Of a DNA stretch of 33,438 bases, positions 7,384 to 22,005 are shown in pieces. Within the stretch, counting starts at the first letter, position 1, and every line of letters starts with the position of its first letter. The notes under the pieces are model-generated. The model saw only the letters and a program-made list of their open reading frames with translations. It did not search any database and was not told where the DNA came from. The position numbers were made by a program, and so were the translations under genes. Source of the stretch: Nitrospirae bacterium CG02_land_8_20_14_3_00_41_53 (lineage in GTDB: Bacteria; Nitrospirota; Thermodesulfovibrionia; Thermodesulfovibrionales; SM23-35); the NCBI GenBank assembly GCA_002780895.1, contig PEUB01000098.1, positions 1-33,438 on the forward strand, given 5' to 3'.

Positions 7384-8349
7384 ATGGTTAATTTATTATG
7401 GCTACAAAGTGGTGGTTGCAACGGGGATACGATATCATTCCTTAACGCAGAGCAGCCACATGTACTTACCGCCCTGAAGATGCTTGATATAAATTTACTG
7501 TGGCATCCCTTTCTAAGTCTTGAAATAGGGGAAGATGTAGGGAAAATATTTGATAAATGTATTTCCAGAAAAACAAAACTTGATGTTTTAATAGTGGAAG
7601 GCGCTGTGATTTGCGGACCTGAAAATAGCGGGAAATTTTTTCTATTTAATGGTCGTCCGTTCAGGGAGTGGATAGAAAAGCTTGCTAAGGTTAGCCAGTA
7701 TACAATAGCAATTGGCACCTGTGCTGCCTTTGGCGGTATAGTAGCTGCCGGCGCTAATTTTATTGAGGCTACCGGTCTACAGTTCTTGAGGAAACAAAAA
7801 GGAGGGGCGCTGGGAAAGGATTACGTCTCGGGTTCAGGCCATCCGGTAGTCAACGTTCCTGGCTGTCCCTGTCATCCGGATTGGATAGTAGAGACGCTAA
7901 TGCGGTTAATAATGGGGAAATTAGGCGCCGGAGAATTGGATGAATTCAATCGTCCTAAGGCATTCTATAAAAAACTGGCCCATCATGGCTGTCCACGAAA
8001 TGAATTTTACGAATTTAAGGCTTCAGCCACTGAATATAGTCAACTGGGATGTCTTTTTGAATATCTGGGCTGTAAAGGAACATTATGTGAATCAGACTGT
8101 AATGAGCGTATGTGGCTGGGTCGTACAGGAAGTTGCACTCGAGCAGGTTTTCCATGTATTGCCTGTACCTCGCCGGATTTTCCAGATAGCTCTGTACCTT
8201 TCTTTGAGACCAGAAAGATAGGAGAGGTACCTGTTACATTGCCCCTTGATGTTCCTAAAGCCTGGTATGTGGGGATGGCCAGCTTAGCAAAACTTGCCAC
8301 TCCTGAGAGATTAAAGAAAAATGCAGTATCATTCAGAAGGGTAGATTAA
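7384..8349 (+). CDS. [NiFe] hydrogenase small subunit, cytosolic sensory/uptake (group 2-like)
   Basis: This 321-residue electron-transfer subunit starts directly with NLLWLQSGGCNGDTISFL and has no Tat signal, which places it in the cytoplasm as in group 2 (HupU/HoxB and cyanobacterial HupS) enzymes. Candidate cluster ligands are C12, C113 (GTCAAFGG), C161/C163 (PGCPCHPDW), H200/C203 (HHGCPRN), C223/C230, and C235, C239, C251, C258, C261. The second proximal-cluster Cys is replaced by Asp (C12-N-G-D15). A strong AGGAGG precedes the ATG. The large subunit follows after 10 bases and a PAS kinase comes next, so an H2-sensing role is likely. A catabolic uptake role remains possible. Confidence 0.92.
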   Translation: MVNLLWLQSGGCNGDTISFLNAEQPHVLTALKMLDINLLWHPFLSLEIGEDVGKIFDKCISRKTKLDVLIVEGAVICGPENSGKFFLFNGRPFREWIEKLAKVSQYTIAIGTCAAFGGIVAAGANFIEATGLQFLRKQKGGALGKDYVSGSGHPVVNVPGCPCHPDWIVETLMRLIMGKLGAGELDEFNRPKAFYKKLAHHGCPRNEFYEFKASATEYSQLGCLFEYLGCKGTLCESDCNERMWLGRTGSCTRAGFPCIACTSPDFPDSSVPFFETRKIGEVPVTLPLDVPKAWYVGMASLAKLATPERLKKNAVSFRRVD

Positions 8350-8359
8350 GGAGTTTAAG

Positions 8360-9823
8360 ATGTCTAAGACGATAAATATAAGTCCATTTAATAGAGTGGA
8401 AGGCGACCTGGAGATAACTATTGAGATTAAGGATGGAAAGGTGCAAAATGCCAGATCCAAGGGTGTGATGTTTAGAGGGTTTGAAATCTTGTTAAAGGGA
8501 AGAGATCCTATGGATGCCATAGTATTTACTCCAAGGATCTGTGGAATCTGTGGTGCATCACATGGAGTAGCAAGCTCGACAGCCATAAAGAATGCATGGA
8601 ACTCTGCGATGCCTGATAATGCATATAGGGTAAAAAATATTGTCATGGCAATCGAGATTCTTATGAGTCATATTACACATTTCTATATCTTATTTGCCCC
8701 TGATTTGACCAATAAAAAATATTCACCTCATCCAGACTATCCTGAGATTGTAAAGCGTTTTCTTCCTTTTAAGGGCGCATCTTATTTAAAGGCTCTTAAG
8801 GCTCGTTCAAGTATGTTAGAGCTTATGGGAGTATTTGCAGGCAAGTGGCCAAATACACTTATCTTCCAGCCGGGAGGAGTTACCTGCAGTATCAGTATTT
8901 CACGCCAAATTAAGGCCCTGGGACTATTGAGGGAGTTACAGGATTACATAGAAAAAAGTTTACTGGGTTGCGAGATTGATAGATGGCTGGAGAATAAGAG
9001 CTTAGCTGACCTGGAGAAGTGGTTGACAGAATCAAACCACCAGGACAGCGACATTGGGACTTATGTTAGGTATTCGAGAGAAATAGGATTGGATAAAATT
9101 GGTAAAGGTCCGGGTAAATTTCTGTCTTATGGAGCATATAAACTTCCTGAGGGAAAAAACTGGCTTTCCAGCGGGTACTATGACAGGGATTTTTACCCAT
9201 TTAACCAGGAGAAGATAACTGAATATATCAAGTATTCCTTCCTAAAAGGCTACAAGGGAGGACTACATCCTTCTGAAGGGATTACCGAACCTGATCCGGA
9301 TAAGGGAGGGGCTTACAGTTGGTCTAAATCTCCGCGCTATGATGACAACACAGTAGAGGTAGGGCCTCTGGCCAGGATGATACTGGATAAAGACCTCCTG
9401 ATCTATGATATATTTAGTAAAAGAGGTTCAAGCGTTTTCTTAAGGGCTTTGGCAAGGCTTCATGAGGCGGTGAGGTTGGCAAGACAGGTTGGAATCTGGA
9501 TAAGAGAGATAGACGCGTATAAGCCATTCCATAAAAAGCCTTTGGTGCATACAGAGGCAAAAGGAATAGGTCTTATTGAGGCGGCAAGAGGGGCGCTTGG
9601 TCACTGGATAGCCATTAAGGACGGTAAGATTGAAAGATATCAGGTAATAACCCCTACTGCATGGAACCTTTCTCCTAAGGATTTTTTTGATCAGCACGGG
9701 ACATGTGAGCAAGCCTTGAACGGGACTATAGTTGAGGATGAGGATAATCCGGTAGAGGTCGGGCATGTGATAAGATCCTTTGATCCCTGCCTTGTATGCA
9801 CTGTTCATACAATAAAGAGGTAG
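8360..9823 (+). CDS. [NiFe] hydrogenase large subunit lacking a maturation tail
   Basis: This is the catalytic subunit binding the Ni-Fe(CN)2CO centre. The N-terminal ligand motif is RICGICGASH (C61, C64) and the C-terminal motif is DPCLVCTVH (C477, C480, H483). Only four residues (TIKR) follow the last His. Ordinary NiFe hydrogenases carry about 15 or more residues here that an endopeptidase removes after nickel insertion, whereas H2-sensing enzymes (HoxC, HupV) are made without that tail. The gene starts after an AAGGAG site 10 bases downstream of the small subunit. No hyp maturation genes are in the window, so cofactor assembly must be encoded elsewhere. At 487 residues it is a typical group 2 length. 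Confidence 0.93.
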   Translation: MSKTINISPFNRVEGDLEITIEIKDGKVQNARSKGVMFRGFEILLKGRDPMDAIVFTPRICGICGASHGVASSTAIKNAWNSAMPDNAYRVKNIVMAIEILMSHITHFYILFAPDLTNKKYSPHPDYPEIVKRFLPFKGASYLKALKARSSMLELMGVFAGKWPNTLIFQPGGVTCSISISRQIKALGLLRELQDYIEKSLLGCEIDRWLENKSLADLEKWLTESNHQDSDIGTYVRYSREIGLDKIGKGPGKFLSYGAYKLPEGKNWLSSGYYDRDFYPFNQEKITEYIKYSFLKGYKGGLHPSEGITEPDPDKGGAYSWSKSPRYDDNTVEVGPLARMILDKDLLIYDIFSKRGSSVFLRALARLHEAVRLARQVGIWIREIDAYKPFHKKPLVHTEAKGIGLIEAARGALGHWIAIKDGKIERYQVITPTAWNLSPKDFFDQHGTCEQALNGTIVEDEDNPVEVGHVIRSFDPCLVCTVHTIKR

Positions 9824-9844
9824 GCATGATCACATGGTACGGAA

Positions 9845-11083
9845 ATGAATTTTCAGAGAAAGAATAAATGGGTATATGAGAATATTGTCAAAGGAATTGA
9901 CGAAGAGATTCTGCTTATCTCAAAAGATTACAAAATTGTCTGGGCAAGTCAAAAATCAATAGACATTTACGGACCTGAAATTATTAATAAGCGTTGTTAT
10001 TATGTAACACACGGTCTTGACTTTCCATGCCAGGGACCTTTTGATATATGTCCAATATATAATGTTTTAGCCACAGGAAAATCCAGTTCCGCAACCCACA
10101 TCCATTCCGGCATACATGATGGTAGTAGTCAACATCATGTATTAATTAATGTATATCCAATAAGAAACGGACATGATGAAATTACACGTTTTGTCCACAT
10201 TGCCAAAGATGTCACTGACAATGTAATCCACCGGCAGATGGAAGAGAAAATGTGGCAGGAAATCATACAAGCTATAGATCGAATTTATGCAGAGTTGGTG
10301 GATAACCAAATGAAGATAGAAAAGTCTAAAACAGAACTAGAGGGAAGGACAGCCGAGTTGGAAAGGAGCAGCTTAGAGTTAATAAAAACTCAGGAGCGCC
10401 TCATTCGGACTGAAAAATTGGCTGCCATAGGGCAGTTGGCTGCCGGTGTAGCTCATGAACTGAGGAATCCTTTAGGGGTAATTAAAAACTCAGCTTACTA
10501 TTTAAAAGAAGAGATCAGCAAAGGTGGTCTAATAGCAAAAGATCCGAGTATTTCTGAGTTTCTTGATATTATAGAGAATGAGATAAGTCTCTCTGCCAAG
10601 ATTATCAGAGACTTGCTGAACTTTTCTCTGACCTCAAAATTAGTGGTTAAGCCATATGATATAAATAAAATTATTAAATATGCCCTATCGGTTACCAAGA
10701 CACCGGAGAATATCAAAGTAGAGATGAATCTAAAACCTAACCTCAAGAAGGCTATGGTTGACCATTATCAAATAAGACAGGCCTTTAATAATCTGATCTT
10801 AAATGCCTGTCAATCCATGGAAGTGGGTGGAAGATTAACAATAACCAGCCGGGAGGATGAAAGGTTTATTGAGGTCGAATTTAAAGATACTGGTTGTGGA
10901 ATTAAAGAAGAAGACCAGAAGAAGATATTTGATCCACTTTTTACTACTAAGGCCAAGGGTATTGGATTAGGGCTGGCAGTTACCCATGGAATTATTGAGA
11001 GACATGAAGGACAAATAAAACTAAAAAGTGAGTTTGGAAAAGGCGCCACATTTGTTGTCAGGCTGCCTATGGCTGAAGGGTGA
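9845..11083 (+). CDS. PAS-domain sensor histidine kinase, probable partner of the H2-sensing hydrogenase
   Basis: An N-terminal PAS domain (about 10-125) is followed by a coiled coil (about 130-190), a HisKA domain with phospho-acceptor H204 (AAGVAHELRNPLG), and an HATPase_c domain with N box (FNNLILNACQS), G1 (DTGCGI) and G2 (GIGLGLAV). No membrane span is seen. The PAS domain holds a compact Cys/His set, C51-YYVTH56GLDFPC62-QGPFDIC69, which could bind a metal or Fe-S centre. The gene begins 21 bases after the hydrogenase large subunit, the order used by HupUV-HupT and HoxBC-HoxJ systems, where the hydrogenase controls autophosphorylation of the kinase. Role as an H2-signal transmitter is inferred from context. 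Confidence 0.88.
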   Translation: MNFQRKNKWVYENIVKGIDEEILLISKDYKIVWASQKSIDIYGPEIINKRCYYVTHGLDFPCQGPFDICPIYNVLATGKSSSATHIHSGIHDGSSQHHVLINVYPIRNGHDEITRFVHIAKDVTDNVIHRQMEEKMWQEIIQAIDRIYAELVDNQMKIEKSKTELEGRTAELERSSLELIKTQERLIRTEKLAAIGQLAAGVAHELRNPLGVIKNSAYYLKEEISKGGLIAKDPSISEFLDIIENEISLSAKIIRDLLNFSLTSKLVVKPYDINKIIKYALSVTKTPENIKVEMNLKPNLKKAMVDHYQIRQAFNNLILNACQSMEVGGRLTITSREDERFIEVEFKDTGCGIKEEDQKKIFDPLFTTKAKGIGLGLAVTHGIIERHEGQIKLKSEFGKGATFVVRLPMAEG

Positions 11084-11088
11084 GAGCG

Positions 11089-11151
11089 ATGAACGAAAAG
11101 ACATGCAAAAGATGTTGGACTGATATGGGAAAGAGGAAATATCATGAATAA
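11089..11151 (+). CDS. 20-residue micro-ORF with a CxxC motif between kinase and regulator
   Basis: The ORF reads MNEKTCKRCWTDMGKRKYHE. It starts 5 bases after the kinase stop and ends 8 bases into the start of the next gene (ATGAATAA overlap), so it bridges the only gap in the operon. The CKRC motif and C-terminal HE are notable for such a short peptide. A weak GAGAG site precedes it. It may be a coupling device or a remnant; no family is recognised. Confidence 0.3.
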   Translation: MNEKTCKRCWTDMGKRKYHE

Positions 11152-13080
11152 TAAAGTCGATGCTTTGACAAGCTCAATACCAAATATCCTGATTATTGAC
11201 GATGATAAAGGCATGTGCAAAACCCTTTCGCATATACTTGAACTGGATGGATACAGAATCTCAACAGCAATACTGCCAATGATGGAGCGGCCTTAATAAA
11301 AGGTGACTCATTTAATATAGCTATATTGGATATAAGACTTCCGGATATAGATGGGGTAGAACTATTGGAAATCATTAAAAAGACAGATCCGGATTTAAGC
11401 ATAATCATGATAACGGCTTATGCCAGCACAGAAAATGCTATTAAGGCATTGAACAGAGGTGTAGACGCCTTTGTTACCAAACCTTTTGACATAGAAGAAC
11501 TAAGGGCTTTAGTTAAAAAGTCTATAGACAAGCAGATGCTAACAAAAGAGAAGCAGAGATTGGGGAAGGAGTTAAAAGAGTCTCTGGAAAAATACAGGGA
11601 ACTATTTGAAAGTATAAATGATGCAGTAGCCGTATTTATGATCCCTGATGGTAAACTCAGCATTTATAATAAAAGATTTATCGGATTGTTTGGCTATTCC
11701 GAGCAGGAGTTGAAGGATAAAGGATTTTCAGATTTTGTCCATCCGGAAGATCTACCCGCGGCTATGAAACGGTTCGAGGAAAGAATAGCTGGGAAACCAG
11801 TAGGAGATATTTATGAGATTAAGGTTTTAAACAAAAAGGGAGAAGTATTTTTCCTCGAAGTTGGTGACCGCCCCTATTTTCAAAAAGGAAATATTTTTGG
11901 TGTTGAAGTCATCATGAGAGATGTCAGCGAAAGGAAAAAAATTGAGGAGCAGCTCATCCAATCCGAGAAGCTGAGAGTTATGGGTCAGATGGCTTCAGGG
12001 GTTGCACATGATTTCAACAACATCTTAGCCATCATCTTGGGTAATACAGAGTTACTTGCCAGGCAGGTGGATACATTAAATCCTGAACAGATAAAAAAAC
12101 AGCTCAAAGTAATCGAAACTGCTGCGTTAGATGCTGGTGAGGCTGTAAAACGTCTTCAGGAGTTTACCAGGATAAGGGTGGATAAAGCATTTTCAATAGT
12201 GGATATCAATGAGATCATTGTAGAAGTGAAAGAGATGTCCAAACCCCGCTGGAAAGATCAGGCCCAGGAAGTGGGCATTAATATCGAGTTAATATCCATA
12301 TTAGAAAAGGATTTGCCACATATTATGGGAAGCCCCTCAGAATTAAGGGAGGTCTTAACCAATATGATCTTCAACTCAATTGATGCCATGCCTGAAGGAG
12401 GTAAGATTACCATTGAGACAAGAGCCATTAATGAGGAAGTGCAGATACTTGTAACTGATACCGGAATAGGCATATCTAAAGAAGTGAAAAAAAAGATTTT
12501 TGATCCATTTTTTACTACTAAAGGTGCCATAAGCGATGGATTGGGATTGAGCATTGCCTATAGTATTATCACCAGACATGGGGGAACTATAGAGGTCGAG
12601 ACCAAAGAAGGAAAAGGCGCTGCCTTTATAATAAATTTACCTGTCCCGGCGGAACTCAAAGAAAAAGTGGGAAAGCATATTACGACCAGAGAGGTTAAGA
12701 CTGCCAATATCCTGGTGATAGATGACGAAGAAATGGTCCGGAATATTTTAGGGAGCTTGCTTATCCAGGGAGGGCATAATGTTTATAAGGCTTCTTCTGG
12801 AAAAGAAGGGTTGGATATTTTTGATAACGAGGCGATTGATCTGGTTTTTACTGATGTGGGCATGCCCGGGATGAGCGGCTGGAAGGTGGCTAAATCAATA
12901 AAGGCAAAAGATCCCAGTATACCTGTAGCCTTGATTACCGGCTGGGGTATCCAGATAGATGATGAAAAGATGAAAGAAAGCGGTGCAGATCTTATATTAA
13001 ATAAACCCTTTAAAATGAATCAGGTTTTAGATCTGGTTGCAGAGGCGATGGACATAAAGAAAAGATTAAGCTCAATTTGA
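11144..13080 (+). pseudogene. Hybrid response regulator / PAS histidine kinase / receiver, frameshifted in the first receiver
   Basis: From the ATG at 11144, translation gives a receiver start (IPNILIIDDDKGMCKTLSHILELDGYRISTA) and then shifts frame near 11266-11269 and hits TAATAA. In the other frame the receiver resumes at 11269 as NTANDGAALIKGDSFNIAIL, followed by DIRLPDIDG with the phospho-acceptor Asp and TKPFDIEEL. One missing base restores the whole domain. Downstream the frame is intact: a PAS domain (ELFESINDAVAVF to RDVSERKK), a HisKA with ASGVAHDFNNILA, an HATPase domain, and a C-terminal receiver (NILVIDDEE, FTDVGMPG, LNKPF). There is no DNA-binding domain, so output is by phosphorelay. 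It could be a real mutation, an assembly error or a recoding site. Without the shift, residual translation from 11326 would lack half a receiver. Confidence 0.85.
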
Positions 13081-13109
13081 CTTAAAGTCATCTGCTCAGA
13101 CTTAATCTT
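13062..13109. terminator. Possible bidirectional terminator between convergent genes
   Basis: Nine-base perfect arms AAGATTAAG (13062-13070) and CTTAATCTT (13101-13109) enclose a smaller palindrome, TGACTTAAAGTCA at 13078-13090. The structure spans the ends of the hybrid kinase and the deacetylase gene. The stems are AT-rich and no T-run is clear, so the call is weak. Confidence 0.25.
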
Positions 13110-14055
13110 CTAACATCTCTTCAATAGTAATCAATACCGATTCACTTAATGCATGAAGATTATACCCGCCTTCAAGGGCAAATATAAAAGGCAGAAACGT
13201 GTGAGGTGTGACAGGCGAACATTTAAGAATTCCTCTAACTATATTTTGTATTCCTTCATTTGTTACATTTATATCTGAAAGGGGGTCTTTTGAATGAATG
13301 TCATAGCCTGCAGAGATGAGGATTATATCAGGACTGAAGTTCCTGACAAGGCCTGGCATGATATCATGATAGGCAGAGAAGTAATCCTTATCTCCTGAGC
13401 CATACTGCATAGGGATATTATAAGTAAAGCCTTCTCCTTTGCCTTTTCCTCTTTCCGAATCTCTTCCTGTCCCGGGATAATGTGGATACTGATGTGTGCT
13501 GAAATAAAAAACCGCGTCATCTTCTTCGAATATGTGCTGGGTGCCGTTTCCATGATGGACATCAAAATCAATGATAAAGACCTTTTTATATCCAATCTTC
13601 TGTGCATATCTGGCGCCAACAGCAATATTATTGAATATGCAAAAGCCCATAGCCCTGTTTGCCTCAGCATGATGACCTGGCGGCCTTACATTGCAGAACG
13701 CCCTTTCTATCCCACCTTTTTTACATCTATCTATCGCTTCAATAACAGCGCCTGCGGCAAACATTGCTGCCTCAAACGAGTTATCCGAAATGTATGTGTC
13801 AGGGTCATAATAACCTTTAAAGGTCTTGACATTATCGAAATATTTTTTGGTGTGAACACTTAGTAGAACACTTAGTATATCATCTTCATCTGCGCGTCGA
13901 GGCTTTATATGTATTAGATTATTCCAGATATCTGAATTTTTTAGTGCATCTAATATTTTTATAAGCCTTTGGGGAGATTCTGGATGGCCAGCAGGCATTT
14001 CATGTTTGAGGAATATATCATCATAAACAAATCCGACTTTTTTCATATAGAACAT
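13102..14055 (-). CDS. Histone deacetylase-superfamily (AcuC/HDAC-like) deacetylase
   Basis: This 317-residue arginase-fold Zn deacetylase carries the full signature set: HPESPQRL near the start, VRPPGHHAE (124-131) with the paired catalytic histidines, DFDVHHGNGTQ (163-173) with Zn-binding Asp and His, STHQYPHYPGTG, SAGYDIHSKDPL with the third metal Asp, and LEGGYNL with the catalytic Tyr. Substrates of bacterial members include acetylated proteins such as acetyl-CoA synthetase, and acetylpolyamines. The ATG at 14055 has an AGG 8 bases upstream; the ATG at 14046 has none. It is convergent with the H2-sensor operon and stands alone on its strand before a repeat-rich gap. Confidence 0.92.
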   Translation of the reverse strand: MFYMKKVGFVYDDIFLKHEMPAGHPESPQRLIKILDALKNSDIWNNLIHIKPRRADEDDILSVLLSVHTKKYFDNVKTFKGYYDPDTYISDNSFEAAMFAAGAVIEAIDRCKKGGIERAFCNVRPPGHHAEANRAMGFCIFNNIAVGARYAQKIGYKKVFIIDFDVHHGNGTQHIFEEDDAVFYFSTHQYPHYPGTGRDSERGKGKGEGFTYNIPMQYGSGDKDYFSAYHDIMPGLVRNFSPDIILISAGYDIHSKDPLSDINVTNEGIQNIVRGILKCSPVTPHTFLPFIFALEGGYNLHALSESVLITIEEMLED

Positions 14056-14137
14056 TAGAACCTAATTTGAACGGGTTTTTTTATTTTTACCCTTATTATT
14101 TAAAGTACTATGAAAAATGTTAACCACCCACTAAGTG

Positions 14138-14201
14138 GTCATTCCCGCTTGTCGGGAATCCTTCTATAAACAAAGAAAGATTCCGGACAAGCCAGAATGA
14201 C
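14138..14201. repeat. Palindromic dispersed repeat, second family (GTCATTCCCG type)
   Basis: The left arm GTCATTCCCGCTTGTCGGGA (14138-14157) pairs with the right arm starting GATTCCGGACAAGCC and ending GAATGAC (14179-14201), with a 17-base AT-rich loop. Similar repeats are common in many environmental bacterial genomes as stand-alone intergenic palindromes. Confidence 0.85.
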
Positions 14202-14275
14202 AGAACAAGAATCGCTCGATTTAGGTAGAAATTAGTTTTCTTCAAATTCTTTTTTAAAAAATATGGACTCTGTTG

Positions 14276-14301
14276 CCCCTCTTTTTAAAAGAGGGGATAG
14301 G
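14276..14301. repeat. Palindromic CCCC/GGGG element copy
   Basis: Arms CCCCTCTTTT and AAAAGAGGGG meet at a single T (14276-14296), then ATAGGG. It lies downstream of the formate-tetrahydrofolate ligase gene. Confidence 0.85.
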
Positions 14302-14343
14302 GAGATTTTGTGAATAACAAATACATAATACATAATTATAAAA

Positions 14344-14384
14344 TTCCCCCTCACCCCCCTTTGCTAAAGGGGGGATTTGAGAGG
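14344..14384. repeat. Palindromic CCCC/GGGG element copy just after fhs
   Basis: Arms CCCCCCTTT and AAAGGGGGG flank GCT at 14354-14374, with ATTCCCCCTCA upstream and ATTTGAGAGG downstream. It ends about 10 bases from the fhs stop and could form a hairpin in the mRNA, without a T-run. Confidence 0.9.
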
Positions 14385-14393
14385 CTATCACTC

Positions 14394-16166
14394 TTAAAAC
14401 AAACCTTTCACTTTACCGGTTTTTACATCTACATCGACGCGCCGGTAAGCGGGGTCGGATGATGTCCCCGGCATGAGGCTGATATTCCCTGCTACAGGAC
14501 AGATAAACCTGGCTCCTCCATATATAAGAAAGTCGCGAATGCGAAGTGTCCAGCCGTTTGGCACACCCTTAATTGCAGGGTCATCAGAGAGAGAGAGATG
14601 GGTCTTTACCATCATTGTAGCATAATCTTTAAATTTTGGATCCTTCTCAAACTTCTCGGCCTTTGCTCCTGCCTCTCGGGAAGTGGTTACTCCATCAGCC
14701 CCGTAAACCTCCCTGGCGATGAGCTCGATACGTTTACGAAGAGGAGTATCCATATCATAAAGAAATTTAAAGTTTACCCTGTCATTACATGCATCCAGAA
14801 CTGCATCAGCCAGCTCAAGTGCACCTTCGCCTCCATACTGCCAGTGCTGTGATACAGCAACACGTGCACCGGCAGCCTCGCACATCTTCCTTGTCAGCTT
14901 AACCTCCTCCTCCGTATCATTGTGGAATCGGTTTATGCAGACAACAGGGTTTATACCTGCCTTCTTAACCGTATTTATATGATGTATTACATTTGTCATT
15001 CCATCTTCAAGCCATGCAAGATTTTCCTTAAAATATTCTTTTGGAATCGGTCTGCCTGGAACTACTGGTGGTGCACCAGCATTAACACCATGATGCTTCA
15101 ATGCCCTTATAGTAGCTGTAATCACCGAGACATTTGGAATGTTCCCTGAATAGCGACACTTTACATTCCAGAACTTCTCAAAACCTATATCAGCACCAAA
15201 ACCAGACTCAGTAATATGATAATCAGCTAACTTAAGACACATCTTGTCGGCCACGACAGATGACTGACCGACAGCAATATTGGCAAAAGGCCCTGCATGA
15301 ACAAAACAGGGCTGGCCCTCAATAGATTGAAGCAAATTGGGATTTATGGCATTACGCATCCATGCAGTCATAGCACCGGCAACCTCGAGGTCTTCTGTAG
15401 TTACAGGGTTACCCTGTTTGTCGTATGCTACGACAATACCACCTATCCTTTTTCTGAAATCTGCAAGATCACTGAAGATTGCGAGTATGGCCATAACCTC
15501 TGAAGAGACAGCTATACCGAATTTAGATTGCATCGTAAAGCCATCCATCTTGCCGCCTATACCGATGACGATGTTGCGAAGTGCCTGGGCACAAAAATCA
15601 ATAACCCAGCCCATTTCAACATTCCTGGGGTCTATATTAAGACGTTTCAGGTTTCTCTTCGATAGCTGTTCATCATTATAGTTAGACTCATGCTGCATCC
15701 TCGCAGTTAATGCAACCATAGCAAGATTATGTGCATTCATGACAGCGTTTATGTCACCTGTCAGTCCAAGTGAGAATTCTGTGAGGGGGATACACTGTGA
15801 TAAACCGCCTCCTGCTGCAGAACCTTTGATATTCATAGTTGGTCCACCCGAAGGTTGACGGATACATGCAGTGACTTTTTTACCGCGTTTACCCATTCCC
15901 TGAAGAAGTCCCATGGTTGTAGTGGATTTTCCCTCTCCGAGAGGGGTTGGAGTTATGGCTGTTACTTCAATGAATTTCCCATCAGGCCTATCCTTTAGCC
16001 TTTCTAAAACCTGTGCATAATCAACCTTTGCAATATAATGCCCGTAAGGCAGGAGTTCATCATTTTCGATACCTAATTCATCAGCTAATTGCTGAGATGT
16101 CTTCATCGTCTTTTCCGCTGCTTCTGCAATTTCCCAATCTGCATGTTTGGTTGGATCAATCGGCAT
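14394..16166 (-). CDS. fhs: Formate-tetrahydrofolate ligase
   Basis: This enzyme joins formate to tetrahydrofolate using ATP to give 10-formyl-THF, an early step of the methyl branch of the Wood-Ljungdahl pathway and a C1 donor route. The P-loop is TPLGEGKST (74-82), followed by [19 protein letters not shown] and [14 protein letters not shown], and the late segments [14 protein letters not shown] and [10 protein letters not shown]. At 590 residues it is slightly longer than the ~555-560 of well-studied enzymes. AGGAGG precedes the ATG. Formate dehydrogenase genes lie upstream on the same strand with one small gene between, so formate made or used by the dehydrogenase can be exchanged with the folate pool. 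Confidence 0.97.
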
Positions 16167-16189
16167 TTTAAAAATCCTCCTTTTAAAAA

Positions 16190-16277
16190 TAGTGTTAAGT
16201 GTAAGTGAAAGTGAAATTCCTGAAAATTCTTAATACATCAACTTAAACTTACACATACACTTACACTTTGCACTTAC
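16190..16277. repeat. Imperfect inverted repeat between the cNMP-domain gene and fhs
   Basis: The left part (about 16190-16215) reads AGTGTTAAGTGTAAGTGAAA and continues AGTG. The right part (about 16240-16277) has ACTTACACATACACTTACAC, TTTGCACTTAC. The two halves are near complements built from AAGTGTAAGTG units. It may be a hairpin in the intergenic RNA or a dispersed short repeat; function unknown. Confidence 0.5.
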
Positions 16278-16278
16278 C

Positions 16279-16728
16279 TTAATAGCTTATTAATGCACTG
16301 AGGAATTTATCGTTCATTCGCCTCAGGTTTTTACTCATTACTATTGCAATTTTCGTAATAATCTTACATGCAAGTTCGATATCTTCTTGCATTAATTTTT
16401 CAAAGTCTTCTTTTGAAATAAGAAAGAGTTCAGTATCTTCAGCCGCAACAGCACTTGCCTCATGTCGTCTTTTCTCAAGGATTGATAATTCACCGAAGAA
16501 ATGCCCTGGGGTCAGGGTAGCAATTGTCTGTCTCCAGCCGTCAGAGGTAATCTTGGAAATTTCAACCTTTCCTGAATGGACAAGATACAGCCCCTTTGTG
16601 TCATCTTTTTCCTTAAAAAGTTGATCCCCTTTTTTAAAGGTCATTTTTTTAACGATTTTAGACATCTTGTTAAGCTCTGCACTCTCCATGTCATGGAGTA
16701 AAACCTGTTGTTTTAATATTTTAGTCAT
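16279..16728 (-). CDS. Stand-alone cyclic nucleotide-binding domain protein
   Basis: The 149 residues form one cNMP-binding (Crp-type) beta-barrel: FKKGDQLFKEKDDTKGLYLVHSGKVEI, then the phosphate-binding cassette region GHFFGELSILEKRRHEASAVA. A C-terminal helix follows, and there is no helix-turn-helix, so it is not a Crp/Fnr transcription factor by itself. The GEL..RRxASAxA pattern is close to the consensus for cyclic nucleotide binding. It lies between the formate dehydrogenase operon and fhs and may tune one of these proteins by binding. The start has a GGAGG site (AAAAAGGAGGCGCT) upstream of the ATG. Confidence 0.85.
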   Translation of the reverse strand: MTKILKQQVLLHDMESAELNKMSKIVKKMTFKKGDQLFKEKDDTKGLYLVHSGKVEISKITSDGWRQTIATLTPGHFFGELSILEKRRHEASAVAAEDTELFLISKEDFEKLMQEDIELACKIITKIAIVMSKNLRRMNDKFLSALISY

Positions 16729-16785
16729 AGCGCCTCCTTTTTAGTTAAAATCAAGGTTCAGGTTAAGAAAACCTCAACCTTTAAT

Positions 16786-19605
16786 TCATATCTGGTGTAT
16801 TGGTTCTATTTTAACTGCACATACCTTTAACTCCGGTATCCTTGCGATAGGGTCCAGAACAGAACTGGTAAGCACATTTGCTGCCGCCTCCTTGAAGTGG
16901 AAAGGTATGAAGGTCATACCTTTTAACGGCCGTTCCGAAATTAACACCTTGATATCTATAGAGCCTCTCCTGGAAGATACCTTCACTGTATCCCCATCAT
17001 TTACTCCCAATTGCTTTGCATCATCGGGATGGATCTCGATATATGCCTCGGGTGATACTTTATTGATTGCATCAATCTTTCTCGTCATTGACCCTGTATG
17101 ATACTGAAAAAGCTGTCTTCCTGTCGATAGCAAAAATGGATACTCATTATCAGGTAATTCCTCTGATGGTCTATATCTGATGGTGCTGAATGCAGCCTTA
17201 CCTCTTGGGAACCCTCCTTTAAAGAGATAAAGAGTTCCTGGATGGTCGAGTGTTGGACAAGGCCACTGAAGACCTATCTTTTCTATCCTTCCGTAAGTTA
17301 TACCTGCTATCGCCGGCCATGCCTTCCCAGCTTCATGAAATACCTCTCCAATATAGTTATATCTCATCTTGTACCCGAATAGGTTTGCAAGTTCCATGAT
17401 TATCCATGAATCCTCTTTTGCCTCCCCTGGTGGTTCTACTGCCTTTCTGACCCTTTGAATCCTTCTTGCAGTATTTGTGAATGTACCGTCTTTCTCTGCA
17501 AAGCAGGCTGCAGGCAATACCACATCAGCAAGCTCTGCCGTCTCCGTCATAAATATATCCTGTACAACAAGGAAATCCAGTTTTCCAAGTGCCTTTATTG
17601 TATGGTTAACATCAGGGTCGCTCAAAACAGGGTTTTCACCCATTATGTATGATGCCTTCAGTTTTCCCTTAAAGGCTGCATTGATTATTTCCGTTGCCGT
17701 TAAACCGACCTTGTCAGAGAGCTTGACACCCCATGCCATTTCAAACTTTTGCTTGATACCCGGTATATTTACCTTTTGATAACCGGGATAGAAGTCAGGT
17801 ATGCAACCCATATCTGTTGCACCCTGAACATTGTTCTGTCCCCTGAGAGGGTTGACCCCTGTACTTTCTCTTCCGAGATTACCTGTCATCAATGCCAAGT
17901 TTGCTATTGCATAGACATTTTCTGTTCCATGAGAATGCTGGGTAATACCCATGGTGTAATAAATACCAGGCCGTACAGCATTTCCATAAAGAAGCGCTAC
18001 CTTTATAATATCTTCCTTTGGAACACCTGTAATCCTTTCACCTTCCTCTGGTGTGTATTCGGCGAGGGATTGCTTGAAGGATTCAAAGCCTTCTGTCCGT
18101 TCCTCTATGAATTTTTTATCTATTAAATCTTCTTTTACAATTACATGCATAATAGAGTTTAGAAGGGCAACGTCTGTGCCTGGCCTGTGCTGCAGCCATA
18201 TCTTGGCAAATCTTACAAGTTCAATCCTTCTTGGGTCAGCAATAATAAGTTCAGCTCCATTTTTAACAGCCTTCTTCATTTTTAGACCGATTATCGGGTG
18301 TGTCTCTGTTGTATTTGAACCGATGACAAAGATTACATCATGATTTTCAATCTCCGGGACGGAATTTGTCATGGCACCTGAACCAAAAACTGATGCAAGT
18401 CCAGCAAATGTTGAGCTATGGCAGTACCTTACACAATTGTCAACATTATTTGTGCCAATGACAGCACGCATAAATTTCTGGAAGAGATAATTTTCCTCAT
18501 TTGTGCATCTTGCTGATGAAAGTCCGCCAATCGAGTCCGCGCCGTATCTTTCTTTTATTTCTCCTAATCTTTTTGCAACAAAGTTTAATGCCTCTTCCCA
18601 TGAAACCTCCCTGAATAGTGAGGAGTGAGGAGTGAGGAGTGAGGAGTCTACCCCCCCATTCCCCCCTCTTTCAAATCCCCCCTCGCCCCCCTTTGCTAAA
18701 GGGGGGGTGGGGGGATTATTAGGGGGATTTGTCCACTGTCCACTGTCCGCTGAATGTTTTTTGGGAGCTGTTCTGATAAGAGGCTTTGTGAGCCTTTCAT
18801 CGCTATTTATGAATCCGTAACCAAATCTACCTTTCATACAAAGCCAGCCTTCGTTTATCGTATCTTTTTTTGAGGAGACACGGATAATTTCGTTCCGCCT
18901 TACATGGAGTGTAAGGTTGCAGCCGCACCCGCAGTATGGGCAAACAGTATCAACTTGCTCTATGTCTTTCTGCCTTCCTTTATGAGCCCACATCTTACCT
19001 GTCAATGCTCCTGTAGGGCAGACCGCAACACACTGGCCGCAGAACTCGCAATTGAGATCTTTTTCATAGGAAGCACATACCCTTGTATTAAATCCCTTAT
19101 AAGCAAAGTCAATTGCACCTACACCCTGAATCTCGTCACATACCCGCACACATTGCCCGCAGAGTATGCATTTTTCCATACTCCTTTCAACGAATGGATT
19201 TTCGTCCTTTTTAATAAAAGGTCTTTTTTCGCCGACGAATCTGTTCTCCCTAATATTGTAGAAATATGCAAGTTCCTGGAGTGTGCAATCACCTGCCCTT
19301 TCACACACCATACAGTCATTTGGATGGTCAGATAGGAGAAGTTCAAGGATTGTTTTCCTTAATTTTTCTAAATAAGGGCTTGTTGTTGTGACTATCATCC
19401 CTTCTTTTGCTATAGTTGTACAGGCAGTAGCAGGTCTTGCCATGCCCTGAACTTCTACTATACATAGTCTGCAGCCTCCGAATGGCGAAAGTTCGGGATG
19501 GTGGCATAGTGTAGGTATCGGGATGTCAAGTTTTTTTGCAGCATCGAGAACGGTTGACAGCTTCCTTACAGTAACTTTCATGCCATCTATTTTGAGTGTT
19601 ACCAT
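16786..19605 (-). CDS. fdhA: NAD-linked formate dehydrogenase catalytic subunit (molybdo/tungsto-pterin, Cys type)
   Basis: This 939-residue subunit has a NuoG-like N-terminal cluster region: [2Fe-2S] ligands C34, C45, C48, C62, a His-Cys3 cluster (H94, C98, C101, C107), and two [4Fe-4S] sets (C146, C149, C152, C156 and C186, C189, C192, C196). The molybdopterin oxidoreductase part follows, with CPYCGCGC (222-229), C256, and the metal ligand C395 in CVRYCHSS, a Cys and not selenocysteine. The C-terminal molybdopterin dinucleotide-binding domain ends the chain. Residues about 284-331 are an insertion made of three repeat types at 18617-18752, at a domain junction. The partner NuoF- and NuoE-like genes are just upstream, so electrons pass to NAD+ or, if the complex bifurcates, to NAD+ and ferredoxin. 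Confidence 0.93.
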   Translation of the reverse strand: MVTLKIDGMKVTVRKLSTVLDAAKKLDIPIPTLCHHPELSPFGGCRLCIVEVQGMARPATACTTIAKEGMIVTTTSPYLEKLRKTILELLLSDHPNDCMVCERAGDCTLQELAYFYNIRENRFVGEKRPFIKKDENPFVERSMEKCILCGQCVRVCDEIQGVGAIDFAYKGFNTRVCASYEKDLNCEFCGQCVAVCPTGALTGKMWAHKGRQKDIEQVDTVCPYCGCGCNLTLHVRRNEIIRVSSKKDTINEGWLCMKGRFGYGFINSDERLTKPLIRTAPKKHSADSGQWTNPPNNPPTPPLAKGGEGGFERGGNGGVDSSLLTPHSSLFREVSWEEALNFVAKRLGEIKERYGADSIGGLSSARCTNEENYLFQKFMRAVIGTNNVDNCVRYCHSSTFAGLASVFGSGAMTNSVPEIENHDVIFVIGSNTTETHPIIGLKMKKAVKNGAELIIADPRRIELVRFAKIWLQHRPGTDVALLNSIMHVIVKEDLIDKKFIEERTEGFESFKQSLAEYTPEEGERITGVPKEDIIKVALLYGNAVRPGIYYTMGITQHSHGTENVYAIANLALMTGNLGRESTGVNPLRGQNNVQGATDMGCIPDFYPGYQKVNIPGIKQKFEMAWGVKLSDKVGLTATEIINAAFKGKLKASYIMGENPVLSDPDVNHTIKALGKLDFLVVQDIFMTETAELADVVLPAACFAEKDGTFTNTARRIQRVRKAVEPPGEAKEDSWIIMELANLFGYKMRYNYIGEVFHEAGKAWPAIAGITYGRIEKIGLQWPCPTLDHPGTLYLFKGGFPRGKAAFSTIRYRPSEELPDNEYPFLLSTGRQLFQYHTGSMTRKIDAINKVSPEAYIEIHPDDAKQLGVNDGDTVKVSSRRGSIDIKVLISERPLKGMTFIPFHFKEAAANVLTSSVLDPIARIPELKVCAVKIEPIHQI
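18617..18647. repeat. Short tandem repeat, 4.4 copies of AGTGAGG
   Basis: A perfect 7-base unit (AGTGAGG) is repeated four times plus AGT, inside the fdhA insertion. On the coding strand it gives SSLLTPHSSL. Seven-base units like this shift frame with every copy gained or lost. Confidence 0.95.
18652..18728. repeat. Palindromic CCCC/GGGG element copy inside fdhA, with a partial neighbour
   Basis: The core hairpin is CCCCCCTTT-GCT-AAAGGGGGG at 18686-18706. To its left, 18652-18671 holds C-rich remnants of another copy. To its right is GTGGGGGGATTATTAGGGGG. It is read in frame as NPPTPPLAKGGEGGF on the minus strand. Confidence 0.9.
18731..18748. repeat. Short tandem repeat GTCCACT inside fdhA
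   Basis: GTCCACT occurs 2.6 times in a row. It forms the upstream border (on the coding strand) of the fdhA insertion and encodes part of SADSGQWT. Confidence 0.85.
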
Positions 19606-19620
19606 TTCATGTCCATAAAA

Positions 19621-19728
19621 TCTCCCCTAACCCCTCTTTACCAAAGAGGGGAAGGACACACCCCTTAATCCCCTCTTAATAGAGGGGAATCTCCCCCTTT
19701 GGAAAAGGGGGATGAAGGGGGATTTTTT
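19621..19728. repeat. Array of three palindromic elements between fdhA and the NuoF-like gene
   Basis: Hairpins lie at 19631-19651 (arms CCCCTCTTT/AAAGAGGGG), 19670-19687 (CCCCTCT/AGAGGGG) and 19693-19711 (CCCCCTTT/AAAGGGGG), with GACACACCCCTTAATC between the first two, as in the 904-978 element. This fills the 145-base gap inside an operon, so it could act as an RNA stabilising or attenuating structure separating the dehydrogenase genes. Confidence 0.9.
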
Positions 19729-19750
19729 AATAATAATTGTGCATTATGCA

Positions 19751-21529
19751 TTATATCTTCATTATCGCTTTAAACTTACATGCATAAAAACATGTCCCAC
19801 ATTTTACACACAAATTTGAGTCAATTCTGTGTGGTTTTTTCTTTATGCCCCGGATTGCATCGGCCGGGCACACTCTTTTGCAGGCGCCGCAGCCCTTGCA
19901 AACCTTTTCAAGAATAAAGTATTTTATTAAATCCTTACATACAGCAGCAGGACATTTTTTATCTATAATGTGTGCCTCATATTCGTTTCTGAAATATTTA
20001 ATAGTACTTAATACAGGGTTAGGTGCTGTCATACCCAGTCCACATAAAGAGGTTGCTTTTATATCCTCACTGAGTTCCTCGAGAAGTTCTATATCGCCTT
20101 TTTTACCTTTGCCTGAAGTAATCCTCTCCAATATTTCAAGCAGTCTCTTTGTGCCTATCCTGCATGGAGTACATTTGCCGCATGATTCTGCCTGGGTAAA
20201 TTCGAGGAAAAACTTTGCTGTATTGACCATACAGTCAGTCTCATCGAGTACGATCATGCCGCCTGAACCCATAATTGAGCCCGCCAGCGCAAGGGGCTCA
20301 TAATCTACTTCTATATCAAGAAACCCTGCAGGAATGCATCCTCCTGATGGACCTCCTGTCTGTACTGCCTTGAATTTCCTGTCACCTTCAATCCCGCCGC
20401 CGATGTCATAAATTATCTCCCTCAAAGAAATCCCCAGAGGCACTTCGATGAGACCCGCATTTTTCACTTTTCCCGTTAGTGCGAAGACTTTGGTTCCCCC
20501 ACTCCTTTCGGTCCCTAAGTTTCTGAACCAATCGGCACCTTTTAATATTATCTGAGGGACGTTCGCAAAGGTTTCGACATTGTTCAGAACTGTTGGTTTG
20601 TCCCATAATCCCTTAACAGCGGACCGCCATAGCTTTGGGGTTGGCATACCGCGTTTCCCTTCGATAGAACGCATCAGTGCTGTAGCTTCACCACAGACAA
20701 ATGCACCTGCACCCTGAAATATCTTGAGGTCAAAATTGCAACCTGTACCGAGGATGTTTTTACCGAGCAATCCTGCCTCATAACATTGGTCTATAGCCAA
20801 TTGAAGGCGCTTAACAGCTAATGGATATTCTGCCCTTACGTATATAAAGCCGTGTTGAGACATGGTCGCCTTTGCACATATAATCATACCCTCAATGATG
20901 GAGTGAGGATCTCCCTCCATTACAGACCTGTCCATGAAGGCTCCGGGATCGCCTTCGTCACCATTGCAGATGATATATTTCACCTCAGACTTGATTTTTA
21001 AGCTAAGTTCCCACTTGAGACCAGTAGGAAAACCTGCACCTCCTCTACCCCTCAATTTAGAGGCATTTACAACCTCGACTACCTTTTCAGGGCTCATCGA
21101 GGTGAGGGCCTTTTTTGCCGCCTCATACCCACCGGCCGCTATATAGGCATTAATATCTTCCGGATCTATCTCACCGCAGTGAGAGAGTACTACCTTTATC
21201 TGTTTTTTATGGAAGTTGCGGTATTCTTCTCCAACAGCCCATTCTGTAACAGGCTTACCTTCTACTAAATGTTCTTTGACAATCCTCGGAATCATATCTG
21301 GTTTTATATGCTCGTAGGTTGTTTTATTACCATTTATAATTACCTCAACAAGTACATCTTTTGCACAAAATCCAAGGCATCCCACTTGATGCAGTGAGCA
21401 CCGTTTTTCTATCATCGCTTTTTTACCTGTAGAGTTAATCTCCTTTTTGATTGCCTCAATAACATCAGCTCCACCTTTAGCAATCCCTCCTGGCCCCATG
21501 CAGACCTTTATCTTTATATCAGCCCTCAT
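19751..21529 (-). CDS. NuoF/HydB-like NADH-binding flavoprotein subunit with C-terminal ferredoxin domain
   Basis: Order of domains: a thioredoxin-like N-terminal region (1-100), the FMN/NAD(H)-binding core starting at LRGRGGAGFPTGLKWE, the SLBB segment, the N3-type [4Fe-4S] motif ESCGKCTPCRIGT, then two [4Fe-4S] ferredoxin motifs, CKGCGACKRVCP and CVKCGTCFYAC. At 592 residues it matches the long soluble form found in NAD-linked formate dehydrogenases and multimeric hydrogenases. In the N-terminal domain the expected C-x4-C is incomplete: C10 is followed by MGPGG, while C44, C51 and C55 are present, so the usual [2Fe-2S] cluster may be absent or rebuilt. It lies between the NuoE-like and fdhA genes and passes electrons to NAD+. 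Confidence 0.93.
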   Translation of the reverse strand: MRADIKIKVCMGPGGIAKGGADVIEAIKKEINSTGKKAMIEKRCSLHQVGCLGFCAKDVLVEVIINGNKTTYEHIKPDMIPRIVKEHLVEGKPVTEWAVGEEYRNFHKKQIKVVLSHCGEIDPEDINAYIAAGGYEAAKKALTSMSPEKVVEVVNASKLRGRGGAGFPTGLKWELSLKIKSEVKYIICNGDEGDPGAFMDRSVMEGDPHSIIEGMIICAKATMSQHGFIYVRAEYPLAVKRLQLAIDQCYEAGLLGKNILGTGCNFDLKIFQGAGAFVCGEATALMRSIEGKRGMPTPKLWRSAVKGLWDKPTVLNNVETFANVPQIILKGADWFRNLGTERSGGTKVFALTGKVKNAGLIEVPLGISLREIIYDIGGGIEGDRKFKAVQTGGPSGGCIPAGFLDIEVDYEPLALAGSIMGSGGMIVLDETDCMVNTAKFFLEFTQAESCGKCTPCRIGTKRLLEILERITSGKGKKGDIELLEELSEDIKATSLCGLGMTAPNPVLSTIKYFRNEYEAHIIDKKCPAAVCKDLIKYFILEKVCKGCGACKRVCPADAIRGIKKKPHRIDSNLCVKCGTCFYACKFKAIMKI

Positions 21530-21543
21530 TATTACTTATCTAC

Positions 21544-22005
21544 CTATCTTTTACCTTTCAATATCTTTATCTCTTTTATAAGTTTATCGGTTGTCATTTC
21601 ACCGTGAACCCTCTTGTTGATGATAACAACAGGGGCCATACTACATGTACCAACACAATTAACCTTTTCTGCAGTAAATCTGAGGTCATCTGTGGTATCC
21701 CCTCCAGGCGGAATCTCGAGTTCTATCAAAAGTCTATTTATAAGCCTTTCAGAACCATTGACATGGCAGGCTGTACCACGGCAGATTGTAATAATATTTT
21801 CGCCCCTCGGTTTTAAATGAAACTGGGAATAAAAGGTAATGATGCCGAACAAACGGCTTGCGGGAATATCAAGTTTTTTTGAAAGAAAATTTATTGCTTC
21901 TTCAGGAATATAACCAAGAATCTCTTGGACATCCTGCAGGGTGGATATTATATTACACTCGTCTTTTACATAGTTTTTAAGTATTTTCTCAAGTTTTTTT
22001 TCCAT
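21544..22005 (-). CDS. NuoE-like [2Fe-2S] thioredoxin-fold subunit
   Basis: This 153-residue NuoE/24-kDa subunit homologue has a helical N-terminus (ILGYIPEEAINFLSKKLDIP, then FYSQFHLKPRGE) and the four cluster ligands C75 and C80 (CRGTAC) and C117 and C121 (NCVGTC). It is the first gene of the formate dehydrogenase operon, 14 bases before the NuoF-like gene. In soluble NAD-linked dehydrogenases this subunit relays electrons near the flavin. Its leader region is shared with the divergent SurA-like gene. Confidence 0.95.
   Translation of the reverse strand: MEKKLEKILKNYVKDECNIISTLQDVQEILGYIPEEAINFLSKKLDIPASRLFGIITFYSQFHLKPRGENIITICRGTACHVNGSERLINRLLIELEIPPGGDTTDDLRFTAEKVNCVGTCSMAPVVIINKRVHGEMTTDKLIKEIKILKGKR

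Follow-up and report, generated by a model that had tools for sequence, protein, structure and literature searches.

In the group 2b HoxBC-HoxJ-HoxA system of Cupriavidus necator (Ralstonia eutropha), the C-terminal domain of HoxB has been described as responsible for the interaction with HoxJ (PMC8229454), its removal yields the RHstop heterodimer (PMC5665086), and H2 switches the phosphorylation of HoxJ off (PMC10073562). How a regulatory hydrogenase signals the binding of H2 to its kinase has been a standing question since HoxBC and HoxJ were described; the transmission routes mentioned are conformational, or pass through an unidentified cytoplasmic electron acceptor (PMC6978683, PMC5665086). 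A further group, 2c of HydDB, is designated 'diguanylate cyclase-linked, putative' (PMC5037454).

The stretch of DNA analysed here (the window, 33,438 nucleotides) is contig C66 of a Nitrospirota genome of 2.0 Mb in 159 contigs, and contains a related four-gene operon on the + strand. Its first gene encodes a [NiFe] hydrogenase small subunit (7384..8349, +, 321 aa; an ORF with Pfam PF01058 and PF14720), the N-terminus of which (MVNLLWLQSGGC) has no Tat leader, and the second encodes the large subunit (8360..9823, +, 487 aa; identified by PF00374 and trees), with intact CxxC pairs and the C-terminus DPCLVCTVH-TIKR. The preliminary description of a cytosolic hydrogenase that has no Tat signal, and the large subunit of which ends four residues past the last histidine, was thus borne out. 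After a gap of 21 bases follows the histidine kinase HK1 (9845..11083, +, 412 aa), with a Cys-rich PAS domain, an input helix, and HisKA and HATPase domains (Pfam, AlphaFold2), and finally the hybrid kinase HK2 (11144..13080, +; REC-PAS-HisKA-HATPase-REC), which contains a 1-base frameshift near 11267-11272. No DNA-binding regulator is present in the operon or adjoining it. Another member of the phylum, Nitrospirae RBG_13_39_12 (locus L018, large subunit 78% identical), has an equal four-gene operon with an intact hybrid kinase.

The operon is like that of C. necator in the clade of its large subunit, the HoxB-type tail of its small subunit, the HoxJ helix of its kinase, and the absence of both a Tat signal and a long C-terminal peptide. 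It differs in the proximal cluster (Asp, where HoxB has Cys), in two residues of the large subunit (His for Gln67 and Leu for Phe110 of HoxC), in having four residues (TIKR) after the last histidine where HoxC has none, and in the position of the helix, which precedes the PAS domain in HoxJ but follows it in HK1. An NtrC-type regulator, HoxA, lies beside HoxBC, whereas the Nitrospirota operon has none but possesses a second, hybrid kinase. The HupUV-HupT systems of Pseudomonadota likewise have the helix-bearing kinase directly beside the small and large subunits; the differences from HoxBC hold for them too, and the Nitrospirota operon adds the hybrid kinase.

Phylogenetic placement and residues of the hydrogenase

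The hydrogenase was classified by trees of our own, anchored by annotated plasmid loci rather than HydDB references, in which '2c-like' denotes the clade that holds GGDEF- and HD-GYP-linked loci and is matched to HydDB group 2c by gene linkage (PMC5037454). In the main maximum likelihood tree of 57 large subunits, the operon's protein, 18 relatives and five classical 2b proteins (HoxC plus four further sensor subunits from Pseudomonadota, of the HoxC/HupV type) form one clade of 24 rows (UFBoot 100, SH-aLRT 99), all 20 rows of the 2c-like clade stand together and separate (100/100), and the 2a rows fall outside both. A quick tree of 95 large subunits agrees, and a constraint joining the operon's group with the 2c-like clade was rejected (p-AU 0.023). 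The small subunits, with the tail removed, also set the operon's group apart from 2a and 2c-like proteins (96/87), but their tree alone did not unite this lineage with 2b. The operon's large subunit branches among proteins of phyla other than Pseudomonadota, so that it is an early relative of the Pseudomonadota 2b group rather than a member inside it.

The operon shares with 2c and 2c-like systems a cytosolic enzyme, linkage to kinases and receivers, and an Asp proximal ligand, but 2c-like hydrogenases form the separate clade, have an RAHY tail and another input helix, and many of them retain a C-terminal peptide. Membership of group 2c was not found: the enzyme lies outside that clade, there is no GGDEF domain in the operon, and there is no 2c helix in the host genome. 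Nor was membership of group 2a, the enzyme lying outside the 2a clade and having neither the long C-terminal peptide nor the adjacent maturation protease.

Sequence identity by itself might suggest that the enzyme is a catabolic uptake hydrogenase of the 2a kind, situated beside a two-component pair by chance: the closest solved structure by sequence, and the best solved relative of the small subunit, is Huc of Mycobacterium (group 2a), and the large subunit is 44% identical to a 2a protein versus 38% to HoxC. For grouping, this closeness to Huc is misleading. The large-subunit tree places the enzyme with HoxC and not inside the catabolic group; Huc has a proximal Asn, no kinase, and the tail VPxGxDxLxY; annotated 2a loci encode a long C-terminal peptide and an adjacent maturation protease, unlike the operon; and neither the HoxB-type tail nor a partner with the HoxJ-type helix was seen in 2a. 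An uptake function is accordingly regarded as highly improbable.

The host genome has one other [NiFe] hydrogenase that is exported by Tat, a group 1 enzyme (contig C72) that carries a C-terminal peptide and is adjoined by a small ORF resembling its maturation protease, unlike the operon's hydrogenase, which no such protease follows. Further distant relatives are found on contigs C2, C73 and C37, and HypD is present for maturation on C132. A scan of the host genome for -24/-12 promoters gave seven matches, none of them at the hydrogenase operons found; looser -24/-12-like matches occur near C72.

Judged by its sequence, the enzyme counts as a deep relative of group 2b, and at several positions its residues depart from those that define a regulatory hydrogenase. 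The proximal Fe-S cluster motif is CNGD (7417..7428, +), in which the second ligand is Asp for Cys, so that it lacks the four-Cys proximal cluster of group 2b; aligned motifs are CGGC in HoxB, CSGN in Huc and CDGD in HofK (solved structure 5aa5). Asp occupies this position in 15 of the 20 sensor-clade relatives outside classical 2b, and Cys in 5/5 of classical 2b. Over a wider range, Asp (in a few cases Ser or Glu) replaces the proximal Cys in almost every hydrogenase of the 2c-like clade and of the sensor clade outside Pseudomonadota, and Asn is the 2a residue. The Gln that replaces a second-shell His near the active site is a trait of regulatory hydrogenases (PMC5665086), but the position of HoxC Gln67 is His in the operon enzyme and in all but one of the 22 other readable clade members outside classical 2b (21/22 His; classical 2b, 5/5 Gln). 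Of the bulky gas-channel pair Ile62/Phe110, the Ile is kept and Leu stands for Phe.

The four residues TIKR (9809..9820, +) after the last histidine of the large subunit align with the start of the longer tails of relatives (TIRNGKKSTSFTLRTY in L020) and so are probably a stub left over from a processing peptide that has been lost. Relatives have 0, 4-6 or 15-24 residues after this histidine, and since four sensor-clade large subunits (L015-L017 and L020) still carry tails of 15-24 residues, the clade appears to have lost the peptide on more than one occasion. A short tail, which the preliminary description listed among the hallmarks of H2 sensors, is therefore a poor guide, ranging from 0 to 24 residues even among close relatives, and the other hallmarks listed (cytoplasmic location and a neighbouring kinase) are also found in the 2c-like clade. 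The H2-sensor reading itself is nevertheless supported by other features, namely the HoxC/HupV clade, the HoxJ-type helix of the kinase and the HoxB-type tail; in the form that the complex works like HoxBC-HoxJ it appears well supported.

The input helix of the kinase and the tail of the small subunit

A segment of about 50 aa in HK1 (10220..10369, +; MWQEIIQAIDRIYAELVDNQMKIEKSKTEL) is conserved across the partner kinases of sensor-clade hydrogenases. All of the partner kinases compared have in common MWxEIIxxMExxYAELxxxQxEIExKNxEL, and the helix is present in every available kinase beside a sensor-clade hydrogenase, HoxJ included; in a set of 50 distinct sequences, conservation is 100% for the central Tyr, 98% for a Glu and 85% for the Trp. 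A profile built from 14 partner kinases matches kinases outside its training set, including three further HoxJ/HupT-type proteins, with E values of about 1e-15 or better, and found no other match among 1169 ORFs of the loci (best other E = 0.1). The open-access papers searched gave no description of this helix, which may nevertheless have been described in the original work on binding by HoxJ and HupT.

The distribution of the helix follows that of the hydrogenase. In 396 Nitrospirota genomes there are four strong matches to the helix (74-79 bits), all others scoring at most about 22 bits, and a large-subunit profile finds eleven group-2 genes: the top four (690-834 bits) are exactly those followed immediately by a helix-bearing gene, those ranked fifth to seventh (565-578 bits, 2c-like) are exactly those with a 2c-type helix directly downstream, and the last four (450-460 bits; 2a by score and family) have neither type. 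Among 398 genomes of Pseudomonadota, 24 have one match each, in a count that starts from the helix-bearing genomes; in 21 of them the match adjoins genes for small and large subunits, and in the remaining three a related large subunit is encoded on the contig of the match, at a distance of about 9-18 kb. Twelve chosen genomes gave exactly one helix match per sensor-clade genome, and of the three 2c-like genomes among them two had no match; the third, Terasakiella, has a match on another contig, and a second group-2 large subunit elsewhere.

AlphaFold2 modelling of HK1 (mean pLDDT 73.6, pTM 0.49; the alignment row of HoxJ was left out of the run) places the segment within one continuous helix, residues 124-226, that extends from the exit of the PAS domain to the DHp phosphoacceptor helix. 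This continuity would suit a generic coiled coil for dimerisation or signalling that was inherited with the kinase and is no docking site. Such an explanation seems unlikely in view of the contrast in Nitrospirota between 74-79 bits in the linked kinases and 22 bits or less elsewhere; of the retention of the helix across differing PAS positions, receivers and kinase cores; and of the 2c-like clade, where another helix is conserved and in one case belongs to a GGDEF protein rather than a kinase. In one relative (L019, hydrogenase 74% identical) the PAS domain and helix persist although the kinase core to which they are joined differs greatly, and four helix-bearing kinases (L020, L023, L033 and L074) have no PAS domain, which shows that hydrogenase-linked sensor kinases do not all possess one.

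The C-terminal tail of the small subunit (LPLDVPKAWYVGMASLAKLATPERLKKNA; 8239..8346, +) carries a motif, LPLDVPKAWYV, as in the extension of HoxB reported to bind HoxJ; the PKAW tail falls within that segment (PMC8229454). The pattern LPxx[VM]PKAW[YF], followed by a conserved segment, is present in 24/24 sensor-clade small subunits (19 and the five classical 2b), and the tail pattern in 0/8 of 2a and 0/52 of 2c-like small subunits. Tail, helix and hydrogenase type co-occur strictly, and because tail and helix mark the same clade they suggest themselves as the two sides of a single contact. From this co-occurrence we infer a docking interface between them, and the conserved kinase helix together with the hydrogenase tail is probably the route by which the signal is passed in such sensors.

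An alternative route is suggested by the PAS domain of HK1 (9890..10249, +), which has three cysteines spaced C-x10-C-x6-C-P: the clusters of the small subunit might reduce a metal centre on this domain and switch the kinase by electron transfer. The identical spacing in ten hydrogenase-linked kinases of the clade (HK1, L018, L019, L021, L022, L024-L026, L028 and L043) fits this idea, and the Cys triad may be a metal or redox site; a PDB search with the domain returned no informative solved relative. Other kinases of the clade, with an ordinary PAS domain or none, still keep the helix, and a redox PAS domain therefore cannot be the general route. Electron transfer to the triad as the switch is accordingly given little credence, although for this subgroup the domain may provide an additional redox input.

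The hybrid kinase and possible outputs

The receiver domain of HK2 begins at ATG 11144 (MNNKVDALTSSIPNILIIDDDKG), preceded by a Shine-Dalgarno-like AAAGAGG. The preliminary description was right in placing a PAS kinase and a hybrid kinase after the hydrogenase, but started the latter at TTG 11326 (the '584-residue hybrid'); that start was rejected, as the receiver begins upstream. The frameshift near 11267-11272 splits the N-terminal receiver, with two stops at 11294-11299, and DNA alignment with the intact hybrid gene of L018 (648 aa, REC-PAS-HisKA-HATPase-REC) indicates that one base is missing. This may be either a mutation or an assembly error. Were the one-base deletion to signify decay, the pathway would be dead in this lineage; that seems improbable, given a single event in a fragmented assembly, an intact hydrogenase and HK1, and, in the rest of the hybrid gene, an open frame of 584 codons in which kinase and receiver domains can be recognised.

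A sensing complex of the HoxBC-HoxJ kind, with its tail docked on the helix of HK1 and phosphate exchanged with HK2 and/or an unlinked regulator, is the explanation in which we place considerable confidence. H2 would bind at the [NiFe] site of the cytoplasmic heterodimer; the PKAW tail of the small subunit would dock on the HK1 helix of about 50 aa; the state of the hydrogenase, redox or conformational, would be passed through this helix to the DHp helix, setting the kinase or phosphatase activity of HK1; and phosphate would then be exchanged between HK1 and one or both of two partners, the receiver at the N-terminus of HK2 and an unlinked response regulator. We infer H2 as the ligand, the order of the phosphorelay and its target; we know of no measured H2 response for a member of the clade outside Pseudomonadota. 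A phosphorelay to a target outside the operon, as the preliminary description proposed, is plausible.

Outputs vary within the clade: NtrC-type regulators (HoxA, L016), REC-GGDEF or GGDEF proteins (L033, L034), a REC-HD-GYP protein (L023), and hybrids of REC and kinase (the operon, L018, L016 and L030). The wiring that had been called unusual, two kinases and no DNA-binding regulator, holds for the operon and its nearest sister, but in view of relatives with NtrC-type, GGDEF or HD-GYP outputs it is one of several. The Aerophobetes locus (L016, 60% identical) includes an NtrC-type regulator, and the host genome has eight clear sigma-54 activators, two of them without receivers and one, on C141, cut by the contig end. 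A search among these for orphan regulators yielded a candidate outside target, a REC-NtrC protein with no neighbouring kinase (G000:C143:25934-27361, locus L211), but no clear target: the receiver-bearing NtrC-type proteins of the host are about equally similar to the Aerophobetes regulator (roughly 43-46%, the C143 protein only marginally best), and so none is singled out.

Convergent with the sensor operon, on the minus strand (13102-22005), lies a block of genes that were named by eye as acetoin/histone-deacetylase-like, formate-tetrahydrofolate ligase, a cNMP-binding protein and a three-gene NAD-linked formate dehydrogenase; in L018 the first three convergent places hold genes of matching length. 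A link between H2 sensing and formate or C1 metabolism is possible.

A second tail and helix, and significance

The partner kinases of most 2c-like loci (L036-L094) have an N-terminal helix of their own, ENxxLRxEIRVxRxAxEITAxLVVxQFExTE, which in one locus (L052:11466-13046) belongs instead to a GGDEF protein encoded immediately downstream of the hydrogenase, and the small-subunit tail of this clade is RAHY in 49 of 52 cases. Profile-profile comparison of the two helix types by hhalign found no homology (probability < 1%), and their visual resemblance is therefore not claimed as common descent. On balance it appears probable that sensory [NiFe] hydrogenases signal through matched modules, a tail of the small subunit and a portable partner helix of about 50 aa, in at least two versions: the PKAW tail with the W/Y helix in HoxBC-like systems, and the RAHY tail with the 'EIRVxRxAxEITAxLVVxQFE' helix in 2c-like systems.

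The pairing of tail and helix, which goes beyond what the preliminary description had claimed, is the most valuable outcome of this analysis, narrowing the question of signalling to two short elements, a helix and a tail, both of them open to mutation, swapping and cross-linking. If a portable docking helix is confirmed, it would be a direct handle for the engineering of H2 biosensors. The cytoplasmic hydrogenase of this Nitrospirota genome is most likely a sensor of H2 gas wired to two signalling kinases, and sensors like HoxBC would thereby extend well beyond Pseudomonadota, with members in Nitrospirota, Thermodesulfobacteriota, Planctomycetota, Aerophobetes and Latescibacterota. If the helix is indeed portable, kinases with or without a PAS domain, hybrid kinases and GGDEF proteins could all be placed under the control of H2.
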